DNA of 64,000 nucleotides. It comes from Candidatus Bathyarchaeota archaeon (GTDB lineage Archaea; Thermoproteota; Bathyarchaeia; Bathyarchaeales; Bathycorpusculaceae). The stretch spans positions 281,321 to 345,320 of the forward strand of contig JAOZHT010000004.1 in NCBI GenBank assembly GCA_026014735.1, given 5' to 3'. The notes beneath the pieces were generated by a model. That model saw only the letters and a program-made list of their open reading frames with translations, was not told the origin of the DNA and did no database searches. The translations under genes were made by a program, and so were the position numbers. Positions 29,126 through 42,982 of the stretch are shown here, in pieces. The stretch's first letter is position 1. Each line of letters starts with the position of its first letter.

Positions 29126-29503
29126 ATGGCTAAGAATCTAAAAAACGGGTTTGTTTTTCACGAGCTTATGACAACCGATGTCGAAGGTGCCAAAAATTTC
29201 TATCAAAAAATTACCGGACTAAATGTGATGCCAGGTCCCTATCCCATGCTAATGGACAACAATCAACCAGTCGCTGGACTAGTGGGTCCAAGAGCCGACG
29301 GATCAGCGTGGCCTTCAGGTGGTCCAGAATCACACTGGATTGCCTATTTTAGCGTCGATGATGTGGACGCAACGGCGAGAAAAGCGAAGCAACTCGGAGG
29401 TAAGGTGCTGCTACCCCCCACCGACGTCCCAGGGTTTGGTCGAGCAGCCGTCCTAAGGGACCCGCAAGGAGCAGCATTCGGCATATTCACCCAACTGAAA
29501 TAA
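29126..29503 (+). CDS. VOC (glyoxalase/bleomycin-resistance superfamily) protein
   Basis: A 125-residue single VOC protein made of two beta-alpha-beta-beta-beta halves. The start FVFHELMTTDVEGAKNFYQ contains the first metal-ligand His of this fold. HWIAYFSVDDVDATARKAK opens the second half with its His, and DPQGAAFGIF contains the closing strand. Such proteins are metal-dependent lyases, dioxygenases or resistance proteins; which one cannot be told. It stands alone. Confidence 0.85.
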   Translation: MAKNLKNGFVFHELMTTDVEGAKNFYQKITGLNVMPGPYPMLMDNNQPVAGLVGPRADGSAWPSGGPESHWIAYFSVDDVDATARKAKQLGGKVLLPPTDVPGFGRAAVLRDPQGAAFGIFTQLK

Positions 29504-30232: not shown

Positions 30233-30267
30233 ATGTTGCTGCCTTGCGACAACAACATATGTTTATG
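30233..30267 (+). promoter_or_regulatory. KGG-array upstream element 1 (ATGTTGCTG-N13-ACATATGTTTATG)
   Basis: The same two blocks at identical spacing occur at 30984-31018. ACATATGT is palindromic. Copy 1 lies about 60-95 bases ahead of the first KGG start codon. The conserved halves separated by an unconserved 13-base core look like a regulator site or promoter shared by two transcription units. TTTAATTG at about 30281-30289 may be the TATA box. Confidence 0.5.
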
Positions 30268-30326
30268 AGCGGTTATTCGGCTCTTTAATTGTTAACTTTT
30301 CCGTAGTATAGTAGGAGGTGAATTTT

Positions 30327-30650
30327 TTGAGTACACGATCAGAAGAGGCAAGAAAAGGCAAAATGACCGTGGCGGAGGCAGGCAGGAAAGGAGGACAGAA
30401 AACCGCATCCACCCACGGACGAGAATTCTACGAGGAAATCGGACGCAAAGGCGGCGAAAAAGTCTCAGCGGAACGCGGACCAGAATTCTACAGCGAAATC
30501 GGCAGCAAAGGCGGATCCGAACGCGCAAAACAGCATGAAGGATCAGCTGAAGCCATGGGCAAAACCAGCCTAGAAGAGGCAGGACACCGAGGCGGCCAAC
30601 GCGTTCGGCGCCTGATTCAGGCTGGAAAAGAGCGTGAGGCAGCGGAATAA
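30327..30650 (+). CDS. Em/KGG-repeat stress protein 1
   Basis: A 107-residue, very hydrophilic protein related to plant group 1 LEA (Em) and Bacillus GsiB-type KGG proteins. It has three repeats: GGQKTASTHGREFYEEIGRK, then GGEKVSAERGPEFYSEIGSK, and a GHRGG-RLIQ end. The start is TTG at 30327 with AGGAGGTGA at 30312-30320 (6-base spacer). GTG at 30318 overlaps the SD and is unlikely. Such proteins are expected to be disordered in water and protect against drying or osmotic stress; a stress role here is inferred. Confidence 0.8.
   Translation: MSTRSEEARKGKMTVAEAGRKGGQKTASTHGREFYEEIGRKGGEKVSAERGPEFYSEIGSKGGSERAKQHEGSAEAMGKTSLEEAGHRGGQRVRRLIQAGKEREAAE
30481..30604 (+). repeat. 124-bp near-identical block, copy A
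   Basis: This part of KGG gene 1 matches 31167-31290 in KGG gene 3 at 122 of 124 positions; both differences are transitions, one of them silent in the third codon position. It encodes the GPEFYSEIGSKGG repeat through GHRGGQR. It points to recent duplication or gene conversion inside the array. Confidence 0.85.
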
Positions 30651-30720
30651 GCGCCTACTTTTTTGTTTTAGCTTGTTCCCCCTCATTTTCTTAACAGCAA
30701 TTTTAGGAGGTGAACATGGT

Positions 30721-30909
30721 TTGGAAGAGAAGAAAGGCAAAATGACCGTTGAAGAGGCAGGACGCAGGGGCGGATTGAAAACAGCGGAAACGCATGGAGA
30801 AGAATTCTACAGCGAAATCGGCCGAAAAGGAGGACGAATAGGTGGCCCTAAAGGCGGTCAAAGAGTCCGTAAACTCATCGAGGAAGGCAAAGCGCACGAA
30901 GAAGAATAG
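30721..30909 (+). CDS. Em/KGG-repeat stress protein 2
   Basis: A 62-residue protein. It starts MEEKKGKMTVEEAGRRGG, then TAETHGEEFYSEIGRKGG and ends GGQRVRKLIEEGKAHEEE. The TTG start at 30721 has AGGAGGTGA 7 bases ahead; an upstream ATG-like frame would include a hydrophobic stretch that no paralogue has. It sits 70 bases behind copy 1. A T-rich terminator follows, so copies 1 and 2 probably form one unit. Confidence 0.8.
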   Translation: MEEKKGKMTVEEAGRRGGLKTAETHGEEFYSEIGRKGGRIGGPKGGQRVRKLIEEGKAHEEE

Positions 30910-30915
30910 TTAATT

Positions 30916-30945
30916 CCCCTTTTTTGTTTCTCGTTTTTTTCGTTG
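30916..30945 (+). terminator. T-rich terminator after KGG gene 2
   Basis: Two runs of six and seven T, separated by GTTTCTCG, follow the second KGG stop by about 10 bases. The next conserved upstream element begins at 30984, which supports a transcript end here. Confidence 0.5.
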
Positions 30946-30983
30946 GATAGCTCTTTCTGTAGGCCTAAATTAGAATGCATCCG

Positions 30984-31018
30984 ATGTTGCTGTAAAAGAA
31001 CAGCCACATATGTTTATG
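30984..31018 (+). promoter_or_regulatory. KGG-array upstream element 2
   Basis: ATGTTGCTG, 13 bases, then ACATATGTTTATG, exactly as at 30233-30267. The 13-base spacer sequence is not conserved but its length is. It lies 64 bases ahead of KGG gene 3. Confidence 0.5.
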
Positions 31019-31081
31019 TGCCATGTTTAAGGCTAGGACATTAGAAAAACGACCGTTTAACCTTTTTTGGAGGTGAAATGT

Positions 31082-31333
31082 TTGAGTGAAGACAAAAGGA
31101 AAGGAAAAATGACCGTTGAGGAAGCAGGTCGGCTGGGAGGCGAAAAAACCTCTGAAACACATGGGCCAGAATTCTACAGTGAAATCGGCAGCAAAGGCGG
31201 ATCCGAACGCGCAAAGCAGCATGAAGGATCAGCTGAAGCCATGGGCAAAACCAGCCTAGAAGAGGCAGGACACCGAGGCGGCCAACGCGTCCGGGAACTC
31301 ATCGAGGAAGGCAAAGAACGTGAAGAGGGTTAA
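31082..31333 (+). CDS. Em/KGG-repeat stress protein 3
   Basis: An 83-residue paralogue starting MSEDKRKGKMTVEEAGRLGG. Its middle repeat block is nearly identical in DNA to copy 1. Ends RELIEEGKEREEG. TTG start at 31082 with GGAGGTGA about 5 bases ahead; the nearby ATG (31078) is followed in frame by a stop two codons later, so it cannot be the start. This is the clearest proof that TTG is used. Confidence 0.82.
   Translation: MSEDKRKGKMTVEEAGRLGGEKTSETHGPEFYSEIGSKGGSERAKQHEGSAEAMGKTSLEEAGHRGGQRVRELIEEGKEREEG
31167..31290 (+). repeat. 124-bp near-identical block, copy B
   Basis: See copy A at 30481-30604. The flanking sequence on both sides diverges quickly, so the block ends are sharp, as expected after gene conversion. 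Confidence 0.85.
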
Positions 31334-31388
31334 TCCCCTTGTATTCTAACTCCCTCTGCAGGTTCTATTTTGCTAGGAGGTGAATTAA

Positions 31389-31571
31389 TTGGATGAGGAG
31401 CGAAAGAAGGGAACGATGAGCGTTGAAGAAGCGGGGCGGTTGGGCGGCCAGAAAGGTGGACGTAAAACCGCGGAGACTCATGGTCGCGAATTTTATGAGG
31501 AGATCGGACATAAAGGCGGACAGAAGGTTCGACGGCTCATCGAGGAAGGCAAAGAGTACGAAAACGAGTAA
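31389..31571 (+). CDS. Em/KGG-repeat stress protein 4
   Basis: A 60-residue protein: MDEERKKGTMSVEEAGRLGG, then TAETHGREFYEEIGHKGG and RRLIEEGKEYENE. TTG start with AGGAGGTGA about 5 bases ahead. It has one complete Em repeat. It follows copy 3 by 55 bases and precedes copy 5 by 50 bases. Confidence 0.82.
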   Translation: MDEERKKGTMSVEEAGRLGGQKGGRKTAETHGREFYEEIGHKGGQKVRRLIEEGKEYENE

Positions 31572-31621
31572 TCAGTCTCTTGCATGATTAATGTCAAAAC
31601 TATGTTTGGAGGTGAAATATT

Positions 31622-31789
31622 TTGAGTGATAAAAAGAAGGGAAAGATGACCGTTGAAGAAGCAGGACGCATGGGTGGAGAGAAGACCTCGGAAACTCACG
31701 GCGAAGAATTCTACAGTGAAATCGGCCACAAAGGCGGCCAGAAAGTAAAGAGACTTATCGAGGAAGGAAAGGAGTATGAGGGCAAGTAA
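31622..31789 (+). CDS. Em/KGG-repeat stress protein 5
   Basis: A 55-residue protein too short for ordinary gene calling: MSDKKKGKMTVEEAGRMGG, then TSETHGEEFYSEIGHKGG and KRLIEEGKEYEGK. The TTG start at 31622 has GGAGGTGA (31608-31615) 6 bases ahead. It is clearly homologous to its neighbours over its full length. Confidence 0.82.
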   Translation: MSDKKKGKMTVEEAGRMGGEKTSETHGEEFYSEIGHKGGQKVKRLIEEGKEYEGK

Positions 31790-31869
31790 CCCCATGCCTG
31801 TTTCTTTTCAGTTTCCAAATTTCATTTTTCAATATCCTTTTTAGTAGCCCTTTTGGAGGTGACAATCCA

Positions 31870-32151
31870 ACGAGTGAACAGACAACAACTGAAAGGCGAA
31901 GAGGAATCGGTCAAGGCAGAGGAACCCGAAGACAATATACTAGCCGAAACGGCGGCGCCGGACACGTTAGCCCCGCTATCGTAGAGAAGTACCTGGCGGG
32001 TATGCATTACCCTGCGGAGAAGAAGAAACTGGTCAGCAACGCCCAAGGTAAAGATGCACCCGAAGACGTCATGGATCTCATCAACAAGCTTCCCGATAAA
32101 ACCTACAATTCGCCCATAGACATCACAAAAGAAATCGGCAAAATCGAGTAG
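31870..32151 (+). CDS. DUF2795 domain protein with apparent ACG start
   Basis: A 93-residue protein. The N-terminal part (2-45) is Arg/Gly/Gln-rich (SEQTTTERRRGIGQGRG). The C-terminal part is a DUF2795 domain: VEKYLAGMHYPAEKKKLVSN, DAPEDVMDLINKLPDKTY and SPIDITKEI. A perfect GGAGGTGA (31855-31862) is followed 7 bases later by ACG AGT GAA. This lines up with TTG AGT GAA in KGG gene 3. No ATG, GTG or TTG is in frame until within the domain. Either ACG is the start, or a base was mutated or misread. Confidence 0.7.
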   Translation, partial: TSEQTTTERRRGIGQGRGTRRQYTSRNGGAGHVSPAIVEKYLAGMHYPAEKKKLVSNAQGKDAPEDVMDLINKLPDKTYNSPIDITKEIGKIE

Positions 32152-32238
32152 AAGCCACTGATTACCCAAATTTTTTGTAATCTACAAACCTGCAGTTCAA
32201 TGGCTGCAAACCGAGGTCTTGTTTTGGAGGTGAAGAGG

Positions 32239-32481
32239 TTGGAAACGAAAAGCGAAGAGAAACCAAAGATGACACGGCAGCAAGCAGGCAGACTTGGCGG
32301 CGAAAAGGTCTCCAGGGAAAGGGGACCTGAATTCTATCGGCAAATCGGAAGGAAAGGCGGCGAAAAAGTCGCTGAGCAACGGGGACCTGAATTTTACCGT
32401 GAAATCGGACGTAAAGGCGGAGAAAGCCGCACAAACAAATCATCCAAAACAAAGAAACGCGCCAAAAAACACGGCGCATAA
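32239..32481 (+). CDS. Em/KGG-repeat stress protein 6
   Basis: An 80-residue protein with two close repeats, GGEKVSRERGPEFYRQIGRK and GGEKVAEQRGPEFYREIGRK. It has a basic tail, SKTKKRAKKHGA, unlike the acidic ends of its paralogues. TTG start at 32239 with GGAGGTGA 4-6 bases ahead. It follows the DUF2795 gene by 87 bases. Confidence 0.82.
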   Translation: METKSEEKPKMTRQQAGRLGGEKVSRERGPEFYRQIGRKGGEKVAEQRGPEFYREIGRKGGESRTNKSSKTKKRAKKHGA

Positions 32482-32539: not shown

Positions 32540-32980
32540 ATGAAGAAAGTACTTGTTTTATACTATAGCCGCAGTGGCAACACTGAAAAAATGGCTAAAG
32601 CCGTTGCTGAAGGAGCCCAATCCGTCGGCGGCGTCCAAGTTGACCTTAACTTCCATGTGGAAGTCTCCGAACTCGCAGGTTATGATGCCGTCATCGTTGG
32701 GGCACCAACCTACCGTCATGAGTTGCCGGTGGATTTCAAAAACCTCTTTGAAGGCGCTGAGGTTAAGCGTTTGAATTTGAAGGGGAAAATCGGTGGGGTT
32801 TTTGGTTCCTATGGATGGAGCGGCGAAGCCCCCAAACAGTTGACCGACATCATGGCAAAGCTTGGGATGCAAACACCCCAACCGCCGGTTTTAGCAAAAT
32901 ACGCTCCTGACTCGGCAGCGCTGGATGCATGCCGGAGCTTGGGAAAGAAAATTTCCGAAACCTTGATGAATACGCCTTAG
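32540..32980 (+). CDS. Flavodoxin-fold protein
   Basis: A 146-residue flavodoxin. YYSRSGNTEKMAKAVAEGA binds the FMN phosphate. GAPTYRHELP and GVFGSYGWSGEAPKQL are the FMN ring loops, as in the C-terminal domain of FprA-type flavoproteins. It may carry electrons to a reductase or an oxygen- or peroxide-consuming partner. It sits between the KGG array and a ferritin-like gene, suggesting a shared stress setting. Confidence 0.88.
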   Translation: MKKVLVLYYSRSGNTEKMAKAVAEGAQSVGGVQVDLNFHVEVSELAGYDAVIVGAPTYRHELPVDFKNLFEGAEVKRLNLKGKIGGVFGSYGWSGEAPKQLTDIMAKLGMQTPQPPVLAKYAPDSAALDACRSLGKKISETLMNTP

Positions 32981-33005
32981 CATAAGAGAAATGGAGCGTT
33001 GTTTT

Positions 33006-33494
33006 ATGGAAGAAAAAAAGAAGGATGAATTAGTTGAGTTCCTTAAGAACCAGGTTACTGTAGAGAAGGAAATCGTGGATTCTCTTGAGAAAGCGCTTGT
33101 CGGCATGAAAAACCCAGCGGTTAAGGGCGTTTTGAAGGGTGTTTCGCTGGATTCGGTTAAGCATGCCGAACTCTACACTTCCGCAGTAACGTTGCTTACC
33201 AGTGCCTCAACCGCGTTAGCGCAAGAGGACTATGACCAACAGAGAGCGCTAATCAAAAAACACATCGAAGTAGAAGCCAACCTGATCAGGGTGCTTAAAG
33301 AAAAAATCCCTGAAATCAAAAATGAAAAAGTTGTTTTCCTCCTAAAAGCCATATTAGAAGATGAAATTCGGCACCACGCGATGCTCAAGATGGTTCAGGA
33401 AATCATCGTTCACGGCGAGACGATCACTGAAGATGACTGGTGGAAGCTGCTCTGGGAAGGCGTTCCGTTCCATGGCGCACCCGGCGGTGGGTAA
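33006..33494 (+). CDS. Ferritin-like four-helix protein
   Basis: A 162-residue, largely helical protein. Two helices have metal-ligand patterns, SVKHAELYTSAV and EDEIRHHAMLKMV (E..H type), in the ferritin/rubrerythrin superfamily order. Other candidate ligands are E24 and E95 in EKEIVDSLE and VEANLIRVL. The C-terminus has WWKLLWEGVPFHG and then a Gly-Pro tail. Binding of a di-iron centre is likely, a specific activity is not known. I start at 33006. Confidence 0.65.
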   Translation: MEEKKKDELVEFLKNQVTVEKEIVDSLEKALVGMKNPAVKGVLKGVSLDSVKHAELYTSAVTLLTSASTALAQEDYDQQRALIKKHIEVEANLIRVLKEKIPEIKNEKVVFLLKAILEDEIRHHAMLKMVQEIIVHGETITEDDWWKLLWEGVPFHGAPGGG

Positions 33495-33513: not shown

Positions 33514-34458
33514 TTAAGCGTTTTCATTTGTGTGGAAAACCTGCTGTGAATAACTCCAGGTTTCCTCAACTGCCTGTGAAAGCTCCCCAAGCACCGAAGA
33601 TAGTAATTCCCCTTTTGATGTTAAACCGTATGCCTTGGGGGTTTTGCGGACGAAAACCAGTTTTTTACCCTTCAAACCCCGAAGGTACTTGTAGGTTCGC
33701 CTCATCGACAAACCGGTTTCTTTGGAGAGTTTACCTGCAGACATGCCTTCGACGGCGATGGCGTCATAGACTTTTCTTTCTGTTTCTGTGAAGGTTTCCT
33801 TGTCGGGGTCACGTTTGGATTTAAAGAAGAAGATGTAGTCGCGTTCTTCAGGCGTTTCAATCAAGCCTACTTCTCGTAGACGCTTAAGGATGCGGGAAGC
33901 AATTTTGGGGGAAATGATAGCTTCGATATCCTCGAAGGTTTTTGGGCCCGAGGATAAAGCGGTCAAAAGCGTTTCTTCATAGCATTCGGAGTGAGCAGGC
34001 AGCACTTCGGCGAATTCCGGGAAAACGCCGAGAATTTCAGTTAAGCGCCCGCCAAAGTTGGTTGCGTGGTACTGGTCGCATGATTCGTTAGCTAACCCCA
34101 CTGATAGAAGGGGACGCAGGTACTCCTCGTTTAGGGTGTCTTGGCTGTGATTGTGCCCGTTTCTTTTGAGTTCCTGCTGTAGTTGGCTAACGGAGTATTT
34201 GCCTTCAGCTATTGCTTTAAGGATATGGAGGCGGGTTTCATTTTTGAGTACGTTGAATAATTCTTTTAGATAGTTTGGTTTATCCATGGCGTCGCGGAGG
34301 CGGCGAAGTTCATTTTTTAGTTTGTAGGTTTGGCAGCGGTTTATGCATTCGAGCGGTGAGGTGGGTGCGCAGTTGCGGCATTCGGCGTTGAGGGTCTGCA
34401 GCATTGATGCGAGGTTGCGTTTTTCACCGTTGCGGGTGGGTTGGAGGACGTTGCCCAT
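33514..34458 (-). CDS. wHTH transcription regulator with N-terminal Cys cluster
   Basis: A 314-residue protein. A cysteine cluster near the N-terminus (CRNC, CINRC) could bind zinc or iron-sulphur. Winged helices occur at about 60-125 (NVLKNETRLHILKAIAEGKY), about 165-230 and 240-305 (KLSKETGLSMRRTYKYLRG). The ATG at 34458 has AAGGAG 11 bases ahead; an upstream frame adds a low-complexity stretch. It is divergent from the regulator at 34623 across TGAC/GTCA palindromes, which may be its operator. Confidence 0.7.
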   Translation of the reverse strand: MGNVLQPTRNGEKRNLASMLQTLNAECRNCAPTSPLECINRCQTYKLKNELRRLRDAMDKPNYLKELFNVLKNETRLHILKAIAEGKYSVSQLQQELKRNGHNHSQDTLNEEYLRPLLSVGLANESCDQYHATNFGGRLTEILGVFPEFAEVLPAHSECYEETLLTALSSGPKTFEDIEAIISPKIASRILKRLREVGLIETPEERDYIFFFKSKRDPDKETFTETERKVYDAIAVEGMSAGKLSKETGLSMRRTYKYLRGLKGKKLVFVRKTPKAYGLTSKGELLSSVLGELSQAVEETWSYSQQVFHTNENA

Positions 34459-34545
34459 TTTTTGTTTGTTCTCCTTGCGACGTGTGTCAGGACGGGAAGG
34501 AGTGAGAGGTTGGGTGGTTGCTGCGTTTGGGATTGGTGTCCGTCT

Positions 34546-34578
34546 TGACACGCGTCATAACTTATGACAAGCGTCATA
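34546..34578. promoter_or_regulatory. Tandem TGAC-N4-GTCA palindromes between divergent regulators
   Basis: TGAC-ACGC-GTCA (34546-34557) and TATGAC-AAGC-GTCATA (34563-34578) are two close inverted repeats. GCGTCATA is repeated directly. A TATA-like TTAAATAA (34580-34587) immediately follows on the plus strand. The layout is typical of an autoregulatory operator that also blocks the rightward promoter. Confidence 0.55.
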
Positions 34579-40127: not shown

Positions 40128-41351
40128 TTAGGCGGTCCACTGCTGCAGCGCCAACGCAAGTTCCCTGTGGCTTTCCCCATACTGCTCAAGGGTTTTGCCC
40201 TCCAGCACCGCATCCACTGCTTGCCGCATCGCCTTCGCGCCTGACACAGTGCCCCCGGGGTGACCATGGATGCCGCCGCCGGCCTGCAAAACCACATCGC
40301 AGCCAAACGTATCCAGCAGCGCAGGCACAAGCCTCGGATGCAAGCCACCTGACGCCACCGGCAACACCGCTTTAAGACCGCCAATTTCGGTCTTGCAGGC
40401 ATCGATGTTCTCAAGCACTTCCTGCTGGGTCTCCGACATCTTACCCACAACAGTGCCCACGTGAAGCTGGTCAACGCCGATGATGCGTGCCACCGCCGCG
40501 ATGGGTTTCATGGAGATGCCATGCAGGGGGTTTTTGGTGAATGCCGCGTGTCCAGCCCGGTGGGCATGGAGAACCAGTTTGAAGTTTTGGTCGCGCAGGC
40601 TCTGAAGCGCCGCCCAGCCGCAGGTTAAGATATCCACCATGACGTATTCGCCGCCCTGATCCTGCACCATCTGCGCCCGCTTAATCATCAACTCATTGTC
40701 GGCGGTTATGTTAATCATGTAGACTTTGCGTTCGCCAGTTTCGGATTGGGCTTTGTCGCGTGCCTCCAGGGTCTGTACTAGCCGCTCGGGGAAGGGGTTG
40801 AATTTTTGGCTGCTGAGGTTCTCGTCGTCTTTAACTACGTCGCAGCCGCCCAGCCATGCGTTGTAGGCGACTTGGGCGTGGTCAGCTGTTTTTAAGCCGA
40901 GTTTAGGCTTGATGATGGTGCCGACGAGGGGGCGCTTGGGCACTTTGAGGAGTTCCCGGATGCCGCCGATGCCATAGCGGGGGCCCTTAAAGCTGTCTAG
41001 AAGCATCTGGGGGAACTCGATGTCGAGGAGCCGCAGGTTCCGGAGCGCTTTAAGCCCAAACACGTTGCCTGCGACGCTGCTAAGGATGTTTGGCATGTTG
41101 GATGTTTCGAAGAGCCCGATGGGATAGGCGATTTTGATGACGTTGCCTTCGATGCTGAATACGTGGGCTGCCAGCGCTTTAACGTAGGGTTTCTCGGTGG
41201 TGAGCTCGGTCCATGTGCCCACGCTGCTTTCCGCCGCAACGCCGCCTGCCGCCTCCTGCAGACTGATGCCCTCGGGCTCCACGGTGAAGGTGCAGATTAA
41301 ATCGGATGGTTGGGGTTTGTAGGTTAAATCGACAAAGTCAAGATACTTCAA
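40128..41351 (-). CDS. rbcL: Ribulose-1,5-bisphosphate carboxylase, form III
   Basis: A 407-residue RuBisCO large subunit. Catalytic residues are visible: K148 in GTIIKPKLG, the carbamylated K174 and its metal ligands D176 and E177 in GGCDVVKDDENLS. The length and the N-terminus, DFVDLTYKPQPSDLICTF, fit archaeal form III, used for nucleotide salvage rather than the Calvin cycle. The start is TTG at 41351: an in-frame stop lies three codons ahead and GGAG about 11 bases ahead. AMP phosphorylase is divergent, 86 bases away. Confidence 0.93.
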   Translation of the reverse strand: MKYLDFVDLTYKPQPSDLICTFTVEPEGISLQEAAGGVAAESSVGTWTELTTEKPYVKALAAHVFSIEGNVIKIAYPIGLFETSNMPNILSSVAGNVFGLKALRNLRLLDIEFPQMLLDSFKGPRYGIGGIRELLKVPKRPLVGTIIKPKLGLKTADHAQVAYNAWLGGCDVVKDDENLSSQKFNPFPERLVQTLEARDKAQSETGERKVYMINITADNELMIKRAQMVQDQGGEYVMVDILTCGWAALQSLRDQNFKLVLHAHRAGHAAFTKNPLHGISMKPIAAVARIIGVDQLHVGTVVGKMSETQQEVLENIDACKTEIGGLKAVLPVASGGLHPRLVPALLDTFGCDVVLQAGGGIHGHPGGTVSGAKAMRQAVDAVLEGKTLEQYGESHRELALALQQWTA

Positions 41352-41437
41352 AGAAGGTTACTCTCCAACTTAACATGGGGTGGGTTTCCTTAAAATCTTT
41401 AACTATTTCAAGCCCTAAGTAGTAATCGGGGTTATAG

Positions 41438-42982
41438 ATGCAGCTTATCGTTGAACTCTTAAACATCACCACAGGCGGCAACCGTATAGCCGTTCTTAGT
41501 CAGCAAACAGCCAGCCAGCTGGGCGTGCATAGCTCGGACAGAATAAAAATCAGCGTCGAGGGCAGAGAAATGATTGCCCTATCCAACATCGCCGAGCATT
41601 TCCCCAACGACCGCATAGGCTTCTTTGAGGAAGCCGAGGGCGCGCTAGGCGTCAAAGACGATGATGTAGTGGATGTGCAGCTTGCCTCGTTGCCGGAATC
41701 GCTCTTTAACATCCGCGCTAAGCTCCATGGCGAGCGTCTCCGAGAAAAAGACATAGTCGCCATCGTCAAAGACGTTGTGGAGCGGCATCTAAGCCAAGTG
41801 GAAATCGCCGCTTTCCTCACAGCACTCAGCATTCATGGCTTAAGCACCGCCGAAACTGAGGCGCTGTCCAGGGCGATGATTATGACGGGAAGAACGCTGG
41901 ATTTTGGACGTGGACCCATCCTTGATAAGCATAGCGTAGGCGGCATCCCAGGCGACAAAACCAGTATGCTCGTGGTGCCCATCGTGGCGGCGGCAGGCTT
42001 CACCATCCCCAAAACCAGTAGCCGCGCTATCACCTCGCCCGCGGGAACCGCAGACCGCGTGGAAACCCTCTGCCCGGTTACATTGGCAACCGAGGAAATC
42101 AAAGCAGTCGTCAAGAAAACCGGGGGCTGCCTTGTCTGGGGCGGCTCGTTGGAGCTGGCGCCGGCAGATGACCTCTTCATCCAAGTTGAATATCCCCTGG
42201 GCATAGACCCGATGCTTCTGCCATCGATTCTAAGTAAAAAGAAAGCCATAGGCGCCACCCACGTCGCCGTCGACATCCCCACGGGTATGGGCGCCAAAAT
42301 CAAGACGCGACAGGAAGCCTACAGCTTAGCCGCGGACTTCGTGGATCTGGGCAAACGGCTGGGCTTAAACATCCAATGTGCCCTCACGTTTGGTGATCAG
42401 CCGCTGGGCTGCGGAATCGGACCCGCCTTGGAGGCGCGAGAGGCGCTTTGGACACTTATGGGGCAGGGCCCACCGGACCTGCGTGAGAAAGCTGTGAGCC
42501 TTGCCAGTATGCTCTTTGACATGGTGGGCGTTGAGAATCCGCGGGTGATGGCCGAGGACATGGTGGATTCAGGTAAAGCCCTCTGTAAGCTACGTGAAAT
42601 CATCGGGGCGCAGGGCGGCAACTCAGCGGTGAAACCTGAGGATTTGCCGGTTGGACCCTACAAGGCCGCTGTGCATTCGCAGCAAGCAGGCAAAGTGCTG
42701 TGGCTAAGCACCGACGACATCGTGCGCATCGCCCGCATGGCAGGTGCCCCCAAAGAGAAGGGCGCCGGTGTTATGCTGCATGCTAAACTCGGCGAGACAG
42801 TGCGGAAAGAGGGCGTGTTGCTTGAGGTTTATGCTGAACGTGAAAGCAAGCTGTCGGCTGCGCTGGAACTCGCCAACAATCTCAGTCCAATTGTGCTCTC
42901 TAAGAAACCTGAAGAAAAGATGGTTTTAGACACCGTTCCAGAGAAAACCACGCATGAGAAAGCCTTCATGCTTGACAGATAA
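41438..42982 (+). CDS. deoA: AMP phosphorylase (archaeal DeoA type)
   Basis: A 514-residue enzyme. An N-terminal extension of about 85 residues precedes the thymidine-phosphorylase-like core. The phosphate-binding motif KHSVGGIPGDKTSM is at about 164-177, and SRAITSPAGTADRVET follows. It splits AMP, CMP and UMP with phosphate, giving ribose-1,5-bisphosphate. Ribose-1,5-bisphosphate isomerase then makes ribulose-1,5-bisphosphate for RuBisCO. The isomerase is not in this window. It is divergent from RuBisCO across an 86-base spacer. Confidence 0.92.
   Translation: MQLIVELLNITTGGNRIAVLSQQTASQLGVHSSDRIKISVEGREMIALSNIAEHFPNDRIGFFEEAEGALGVKDDDVVDVQLASLPESLFNIRAKLHGERLREKDIVAIVKDVVERHLSQVEIAAFLTALSIHGLSTAETEALSRAMIMTGRTLDFGRGPILDKHSVGGIPGDKTSMLVVPIVAAAGFTIPKTSSRAITSPAGTADRVETLCPVTLATEEIKAVVKKTGGCLVWGGSLELAPADDLFIQVEYPLGIDPMLLPSILSKKKAIGATHVAVDIPTGMGAKIKTRQEAYSLAADFVDLGKRLGLNIQCALTFGDQPLGCGIGPALEAREALWTLMGQGPPDLREKAVSLASMLFDMVGVENPRVMAEDMVDSGKALCKLREIIGAQGGNSAVKPEDLPVGPYKAAVHSQQAGKVLWLSTDDIVRIARMAGAPKEKGAGVMLHAKLGETVRKEGVLLEVYAERESKLSAALELANNLSPIVLSKKPEEKMVLDTVPEKTTHEKAFMLDR

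Follow-up and report, generated by a model that had tools for sequence, protein, structure and literature searches.

A conserved array of six KGG-family genes and a DUF2795 gene with strong Shine-Dalgarno sites and predicted non-AUG start codons in a Candidatus Bathyarchaeota archaeon

The KGG family (PF10685), which includes YciG and YmdF of E. coli and Salmonella as well as GsiB of Bacillus, consists of small hydrophilic proteins that share a glycine-rich repeat. In the yciGFE locus of enteric bacteria, genes for ferritin-like proteins follow a KGG gene. A related repeat, GG-x-K...G-x-EFY-x-EIG-x-KGG, is found in the group 1 late embryogenesis abundant (LEA) or Em proteins (Pfam LEA_5, PF00477), which Campos et al., as cited in PMC12904285, are said to have described in archaea in 2013. 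YciG-type KGG proteins of enteric bacteria have been described as small hydrophilins under RpoS/stress control (PMC5437024), and in Salmonella, where the locus bears the name yciGFE(katN), deletion of a KGG protein has been reported to lower the survival of heat and of antimicrobial peptides (PMC7161692). In this paper, we describe an array of six KGG genes and one DUF2795 gene in a Candidatus Bathyarchaeota archaeon (GCA_026014735.1), located in a window of 64 kb, by which we mean the whole stretch analysed (contig JAOZHT010000004.1, positions 281,321 to 345,320 of the forward strand). The host, rightly recognised as archaeal in a preliminary description made from the sequence, belongs to the genus of Ca. 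Bathycorpusculum (GTDB genus PALSA-986), whose congeners include termitum and hydrogenotrophicum, and whose habitats are given as peat, sediment, digesters and termite guts (PMC10684969). The array proteins share the repeat, the size and the hydrophilicity of YciG and YmdF; unlike these, they come from a single archaeal cluster, in which each of the six genes has its own slot architecture, carry a conserved C-terminal RVRxLIEEGK cap, and are associated with non-AUG starts and a DUF2795 partner.

The array occupies 2.2 kb of the plus strand (30327-32481), where the preliminary description had placed it, and each of its seven open reading frames (ORFs) is preceded by a perfect copy of the Shine-Dalgarno (SD) sequence GGAGGTGA. 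The five leading ORFs, all with TTG starts, are KGG1 (30327..30650, 107 amino acids (aa), 52.1 bits with the Pfam KGG profile, SD at 30314..30321), KGG2 (30721..30909, 62 aa, 20.7 bits, SD at 30706..30713), KGG3 (31082..31333, 83 aa, 29.7 bits, SD at 31069..31076), KGG4 (31389..31571, 60 aa, 21.6 bits, SD at 31376..31383) and KGG5 (31622..31789, 55 aa, 34.8 bits, SD at 31608..31615). They are followed by the DUF2795 gene (31870..32151, 93 aa, SD at 31855..31862), which has a putative ACG start and encodes a basic N-terminal tail and then the DUF2795 domain, and by KGG6 (32239..32481, 80 aa, 46.8 bits, SD at 32226..32233), which has a TTG start and a lysine-rich tail. Two starts have been corrected. 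The ATG at 30716 was rejected as the start of KGG2, as it lies out of frame and is followed by three stops in its own frame, and TTG 30721 was taken instead; for KGG6 the most likely start is TTG 32239, which follows the SD site, rather than ATG 32200, which would give a longer reading; the KGG6 score of 46.8 bits was obtained with this longer reading.

All six KGG proteins pass the gathering cut-off of the KGG profile (20.4 bits), KGG2 and KGG4 barely so, and the DUF2795 protein passes that of PF11387 (59.1 bits vs 25), which bears out both family identities proposed earlier. The claimed membership in Em/LEA_5 did not hold by Pfam's threshold, as the scores of 15.9-31.7 bits lie below the cut-off of 40 in 6/6 proteins; a LEA_5 search of the whole genome of the host also returned nothing above the cut-off. 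The array proteins resemble group 1 LEA proteins in their related repeat and their weak profile matches, and differ from them in being much shorter and encoded in a multi-gene cluster. None of the seven array proteins has an above-cut-off match in NCBIfam. Hydrophilins are defined by a glycine content >6% and a hydrophilicity index >1. The six KGG proteins have this composition, with 15.0-21.0% glycine, a grand average of hydropathy of -1.26 to -1.76, and neither cysteine nor tryptophan. All six KGG-model matches of the genome fall within the array. Elsewhere in the genome lie two dispersed ORFs, 36 and 47 codons long, that are KGG-like (L161 at C1:101719 and L177 at C2:267515); both have GGAGGTGA and a TTG start, and they are below the Pfam KGG cut-off or unscored.

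A comparison of gene order in relatives, which the preliminary description had called for, revealed a similar array that is syntenic across related genomes of the genus; the lack of any profile match, or of such an array together with no expression, had been named there as grounds for abandoning its reading. In a sample of the phylum, KGG proteins were found in 12/398 genomes, 11 of these 12 being among the 16 congeners sampled. The earlier statement that such an array is unusual in archaea stands for the host phylum, but methanogens, too, carry KGG genes, and some bacteria have them in clusters of 3 to 6. A KGG profile derived from the array matches 22/32 congeners, and 17/23 among the better assemblies. 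In 16 named congener loci, which were selected by likeness to this array and some of which end at contig ends, KGG1 and KGG2 are present in 16, the DUF2795 gene in 12 and KGG6 in 9; a glyoxalase-like gene at 29126-29503, considered as a further array member, is present in none and was rejected. The ratio of nonsynonymous to synonymous substitution rates (dN/dS) of KGG1 is 0.022-0.031 in the 7/16 pairs with a finite dS; the other 9 pairs are saturated in dS, as are 11/12 pairs of the DUF2795 domain, whose remaining pair gives 0.045. As judged from these sequence comparisons, the array is under purifying selection, and this together with its synteny in relatives places it beyond chance. Furthermore, each KGG gene maintains its own slot architecture across species, and the array is therefore older than the radiation of the sampled genus. 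The C-terminal cassette of KGG3 is nearly identical to that of KGG1, the two differing by 1.1% of their DNA in the window genome against 17.2% to the KGG1 of other species. The two cassettes are closer to each other than to the KGG1 of any other species in 5/14 genomes (2 tie, 7 do not), and this within-genome likeness indicates repeated gene conversion between KGG1 and KGG3 in part of the genus.

GGAGGTGA occurs 7 times on the plus strand of the window and 0 times on the minus strand, all seven copies preceding array genes, and the predicted start codons behind them are non-AUG throughout, with UUG in the six KGG genes and ACG in the DUF2795 gene. The TTG start is invariant in KGG1 (18/18 loci with a readable start; L118, L122 and L124 end at the KGG1 start and were excluded) and in KGG2 (20/20 loci); as automatic start calls were partly wrong, for instance for KGG6 of the window, only these two counts are used as evidence. 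In the genome of the host, perfect GGAGGTGA precedes TTG at 26 sites vs 12 in the control, and ATG at 17 sites vs 2. Other short ORFs of this genome (L163, L166, L171, L178; 44-87 codons) also stand behind GGAGGTGA and TTG, some of them zinc-finger-like by eye, and the combination of a strong SD site with UUG may be the mark of a group of small proteins. A common hairpin hiding the SD sites was considered and rejected, as single-sequence folds of the seven window leaders, judged by eye and with no test of covariation made, show no common structure. In addition, the element CATANNTTTATG lies 60-70 nt upstream of KGG1 in 17/17 loci (30256..30267 in the window) and, by exact pattern, upstream of KGG3 in 7/17 (31007..31018). 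These are its only two occurrences in the window, both within the array, and the element may be part of a promoter. An Rfam scan of the window found two tRNAs and nothing else.

In the DUF2795 ORF, the first ATG, GTG or TTG appears only at 32002, inside the domain, and the SD site points to ACG 31870 instead. Behind GGAGG, at a distance of 8-10 nt, 14/17 congeners have an ACG codon and 3/17 an ATG; in this count L134, which was cut, was excluded, and L133, whose N-terminus is altered, was scored as ATG despite a preceding GTG. Among the other threonine codons of these genes ACG makes up 4/106 (Fisher p 4.6e-15, uncorrected for kinship). In 6/14 of the ACG congeners the ACG is preceded, at a distance of one or two codons, by an in-frame stop; in 9/14 the open frame contains no ATG, GTG or TTG before the domain, and in the other 5/14 canonical codons are confined to the SD site or lie upstream of it. 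ACG is conserved at SD distance, and the genes offer no usable canonical start. We hold that ACG is very likely the start codon of the array DUF2795 gene, and it would be used as such in the cell. Known near-cognate starts include the regulated AUU starts of infC and pcnB in E. coli. ACG starts have been reported in chloroplast and viral mRNAs (PMC9845219). The DUF2795 start is like these in being a near-cognate codon conserved as a translation-level feature, and unlike them in being archaeal, SD-led and conserved genus-wide. No archaeal case of an ACG start was found in searches of the open-licence literature, which is no proof of absence, and a term search of a review of archaeal initiation (PMC7531240) did not return ACG. 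An unlinked DUF2795 paralogue in 7 congener loci (L135-L141) has an in-frame TTG behind an SD site and no KGG gene nearby, and is devoid of the basic tail, RRRGIGQGRG-RRQYT, that is conserved in the array protein. The starts of other archaeal DUF2795 genes were readable at 1/11 loci with a pattern that was too strict. AlphaFold2 predicts four helices at residues 35-92 of the DUF2795 protein; a Foldseek search of the PDB with this model gave 0 matches at E <=0.001, VIA-align gave a best Z of 3.1, for RecX, with no family prominent, and a sequence search of the PDB found none.

The association of KGG and DUF2795 genes recurs in bacteria. Six multi-gene KGG loci were noticed outside Bathyarchaeota (L029, L041, L057, L063-L065), and a DUF2795-type gene is present in 4/6, where it adjoins at least three KGG genes: one in Stutzerimonas azotifigens (L057) and three in Hyphomicrobiales/Methylocystis (L063-L065). 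As in the window, several KGG genes are followed there by the DUF2795-type gene on the same strand; in the three alphaproteobacterial loci DUF5789 is the better-scoring profile for this partner, ahead of DUF2795, and 1/3 copies is just below the DUF2795 cut-off. In the gammaproteobacterial family of S. azotifigens, which we take to be Pseudomonadaceae, DUF2795 was found in 16/198 genomes, with a KGG ORF within about 1.5 kb at 11/17 loci (10/16 without the locus that prompted the search), compared with 0/64 background segments of 2 kb, which are flanks of other KGG loci and not from the same genomes. In all nine resolved cases of this family, the DUF2795 gene lies directly 3' of the KGG gene on the same strand, with an ATG start, unlike the ACG here. 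Because the order of KGG and then DUF2795 recurs in gamma- and alphaproteobacteria, the DUF2795 protein probably has KGG hydrophilins as its partners. Two further DUF2795 contexts were observed. In genome G390 (L148 and other hits), which belongs to the host phylum but not to the genus, DUF2795 matches number nine, several of them adjacent near C1:141684-144746, and there is one KGG match. On the Rhizobium sp. Q54 plasmid LR606149.1 (L252:1921-2692), a DUF2795 gene lies directly behind a gene for a sigma-70-type factor that also matches the PhyR sigma-like domain, a context hinting at the general stress response.

Taking these observations together, we favour, as fairly probable, the reading that KGG hydrophilins and a DUF2795 partner are encoded here in a cluster that is operon-like, conserved across the genus and stress-induced, and whose initiation is SD-dependent. 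One conserved promoter before KGG1, often with a second before KGG3, would transcribe the array under water, heat or redox stress. By analogy with YciG and GsiB, the KGG proteins, which are small, glycine-rich and very hydrophilic, may confer stress protection, acting in bulk as flexible shields that surround proteins or nucleic acids, a role that has been proposed for these two and for group 1 LEA proteins; the DUF2795 protein would be a folded, sub-stoichiometric partner present in low amount. With UUG as a weak and ACG as a very weak start codon, initiation would rely on the very strong SD sites, and the weak starts might keep the output, that of DUF2795 above all, either low or tied to initiation stringency (aIF1). 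Archaeal aIF1 is reported to discriminate against non-AUG starts (PMC6237735, PMC8211752), and weak starts behind perfect SD sites suggest that this stringency matters here. A bolder extension, which we regard as speculative, is that the whole operon is set for conditional translation, its six UUG starts and one obligatory ACG making the output and the DUF2795:KGG ratio follow start-selection stringency (aIF1 level, cold, drying), and that KGG and DUF2795 constitute an ancient undescribed stress module common to archaea and proteobacteria.

Several observations weigh against the favoured reading. Of 46 KGG-bearing genomes, 19 have DUF2795, and it is adjacent to KGG in only 4; a KGG neighbour was found at 0/17 other archaeal DUF2795 loci, 7 of which are the paralogue, and no KGG gene was recognised at the two plasmid DUF2795 loci examined (of 15 records matched), one of which is unannotated there. 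The link between KGG and DUF2795 is real in some lineages and not universal. As 10/32 congeners have no KGG match, some being incomplete assemblies, the system is dispensable. Strong SD sites before ACG number 21 in the genome of the host vs 61 in a reversed control, with a pattern one base too short to cover the array's own DUF2795 site; a genome-wide use of ACG was rejected on this count, and together with the excess before TTG it follows that a strong site with TTG is a wider habit of the genome and one with ACG is not. AlphaFold2 draws helices in KGG1 at a mean predicted local distance difference test score (pLDDT) of 58.2 with no residue >=90, and disorder is likely rather than demonstrated. 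Finally, PMC12904285 cautions against calling archaeal KGG-like proteins LEA/KGG without functional work, and doubts the Methanocella case.

The alternative that survives best, although we think it rather unlikely, is that the UUG and ACG codons are neutral relics, the loss of AUG having been tolerated by virtue of the strong SD sites and having no regulatory meaning. The compensation of poor start codons by stronger SD sites in prokaryotes has indeed been reported by Belinky et al. (PMC5622118), and the occurrence of GGAGGTGA before both TTG and ATG elsewhere in the genome, as counted above, agrees with it. The same source, however, finds AUG-to-UUG changes at starts to be strongly selected against, yet, despite saturated synonymous sites, UUG is fixed in KGG1 and KGG2 and ACG is kept in 14/17 congeners.

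Improbable in our judgement is the possibility that the locus is a redox or iron-stress island, in which the KGG and DUF2795 proteins assist the products of the neighbouring genes, as in yciGFE. Downstream of the array on the same strand lie a flavodoxin-like gene (32540..32980, Pfam Flavodoxin_1 69.5 bits), a frequent neighbour (9/16 named congener loci), and a ferritin/rubrerythrin-like gene (32991..33494), the most constant one (14/16); these are followed on the minus strand by a convergent winged-helix regulator, ArsR/TrmB-like (33514..34551; HTH_5, HTH_45 and TrmB above the Pfam cut-off; 10/16). The ferritin-like gene adjoins the array even where KGG6 and flavodoxin have been lost, and there are E/H residues conserved in 15/15 aligned copies, both of which speak for such an island. 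Against it, the flavodoxin genes and most ferritin-like genes have no perfect SD site, and in the other 62 loci neither was found to have a homologue next to KGG genes, except in L043, a Bathyarchaeota contig. The ferritin-like protein is below the Pfam thresholds (Ferritin_2 18.4 vs 24.7 bits, Rubrerythrin 18 vs 22.8), and a sequence search of the PDB gave nothing convincing, the best match (E 0.0014) being a designed helix bundle. Farther away in the window (40128-42982), an ORF that by eye resembles form III RuBisCO diverges from one resembling AMP phosphorylase.

No more probable is the view that the KGG proteins associate with nucleic acids or the envelope instead of protecting against desiccation or osmotic stress; they might, for instance, compact chromatin during dormancy, jointly with the DUF2795 protein and its basic tail and with KGG6, which is rich in lysine. 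The basic tail of DUF2795 is conserved, KGG6 has 24 Lys/Arg vs 11 Asp/Glu in its 80 residues, and KGG1-KGG5 have a weak similarity to SASP, the spore DNA-binding proteins (11.7-19.4 bits); all these matches lie below the cut-off of 22, however, and may just reflect short GG-rich helices, and KGG2-KGG5 are nearly neutral in charge.

Least probable by far is an internal start of the DUF2795 frame, at the GMHYPA ATG (32002) or another codon, with its upstream part untranslated: ACG is elsewhere a very poor start codon and this ATG is available, but the part upstream shows conservation at the protein level (residues VSPAI, GQGRG) alongside varying synonymous sites, 4/17 congeners lack the inner ATG (one Val, three Ile there), a start at that ATG would remove the first helix of the domain, and the ACG stands at the SD distance where 3/17 congeners have ATG.

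Taken as a whole, the interpretation given in the preliminary description is partly supported, and the translation-start architecture and the recurring KGG-DUF2795 linkage go beyond it. DUF2795, which a full-text search of the open-licence literature found in two papers, with one mention in each, is a family without a known role, and it gains a concrete, probable partner in the KGG hydrophilins. With its congeners, the genus also serves as a test case, both natural and comparative, for an archaeal start at a near-cognate ACG. Standard gene callers accept ATG, GTG and TTG, and would truncate or miss the DUF2795 gene of the array; other such genes may therefore be hidden. Finally, hydrophilin arrays are hereby documented in archaea of an uncultured genus that lives in peat, sediments, digesters and termite guts.

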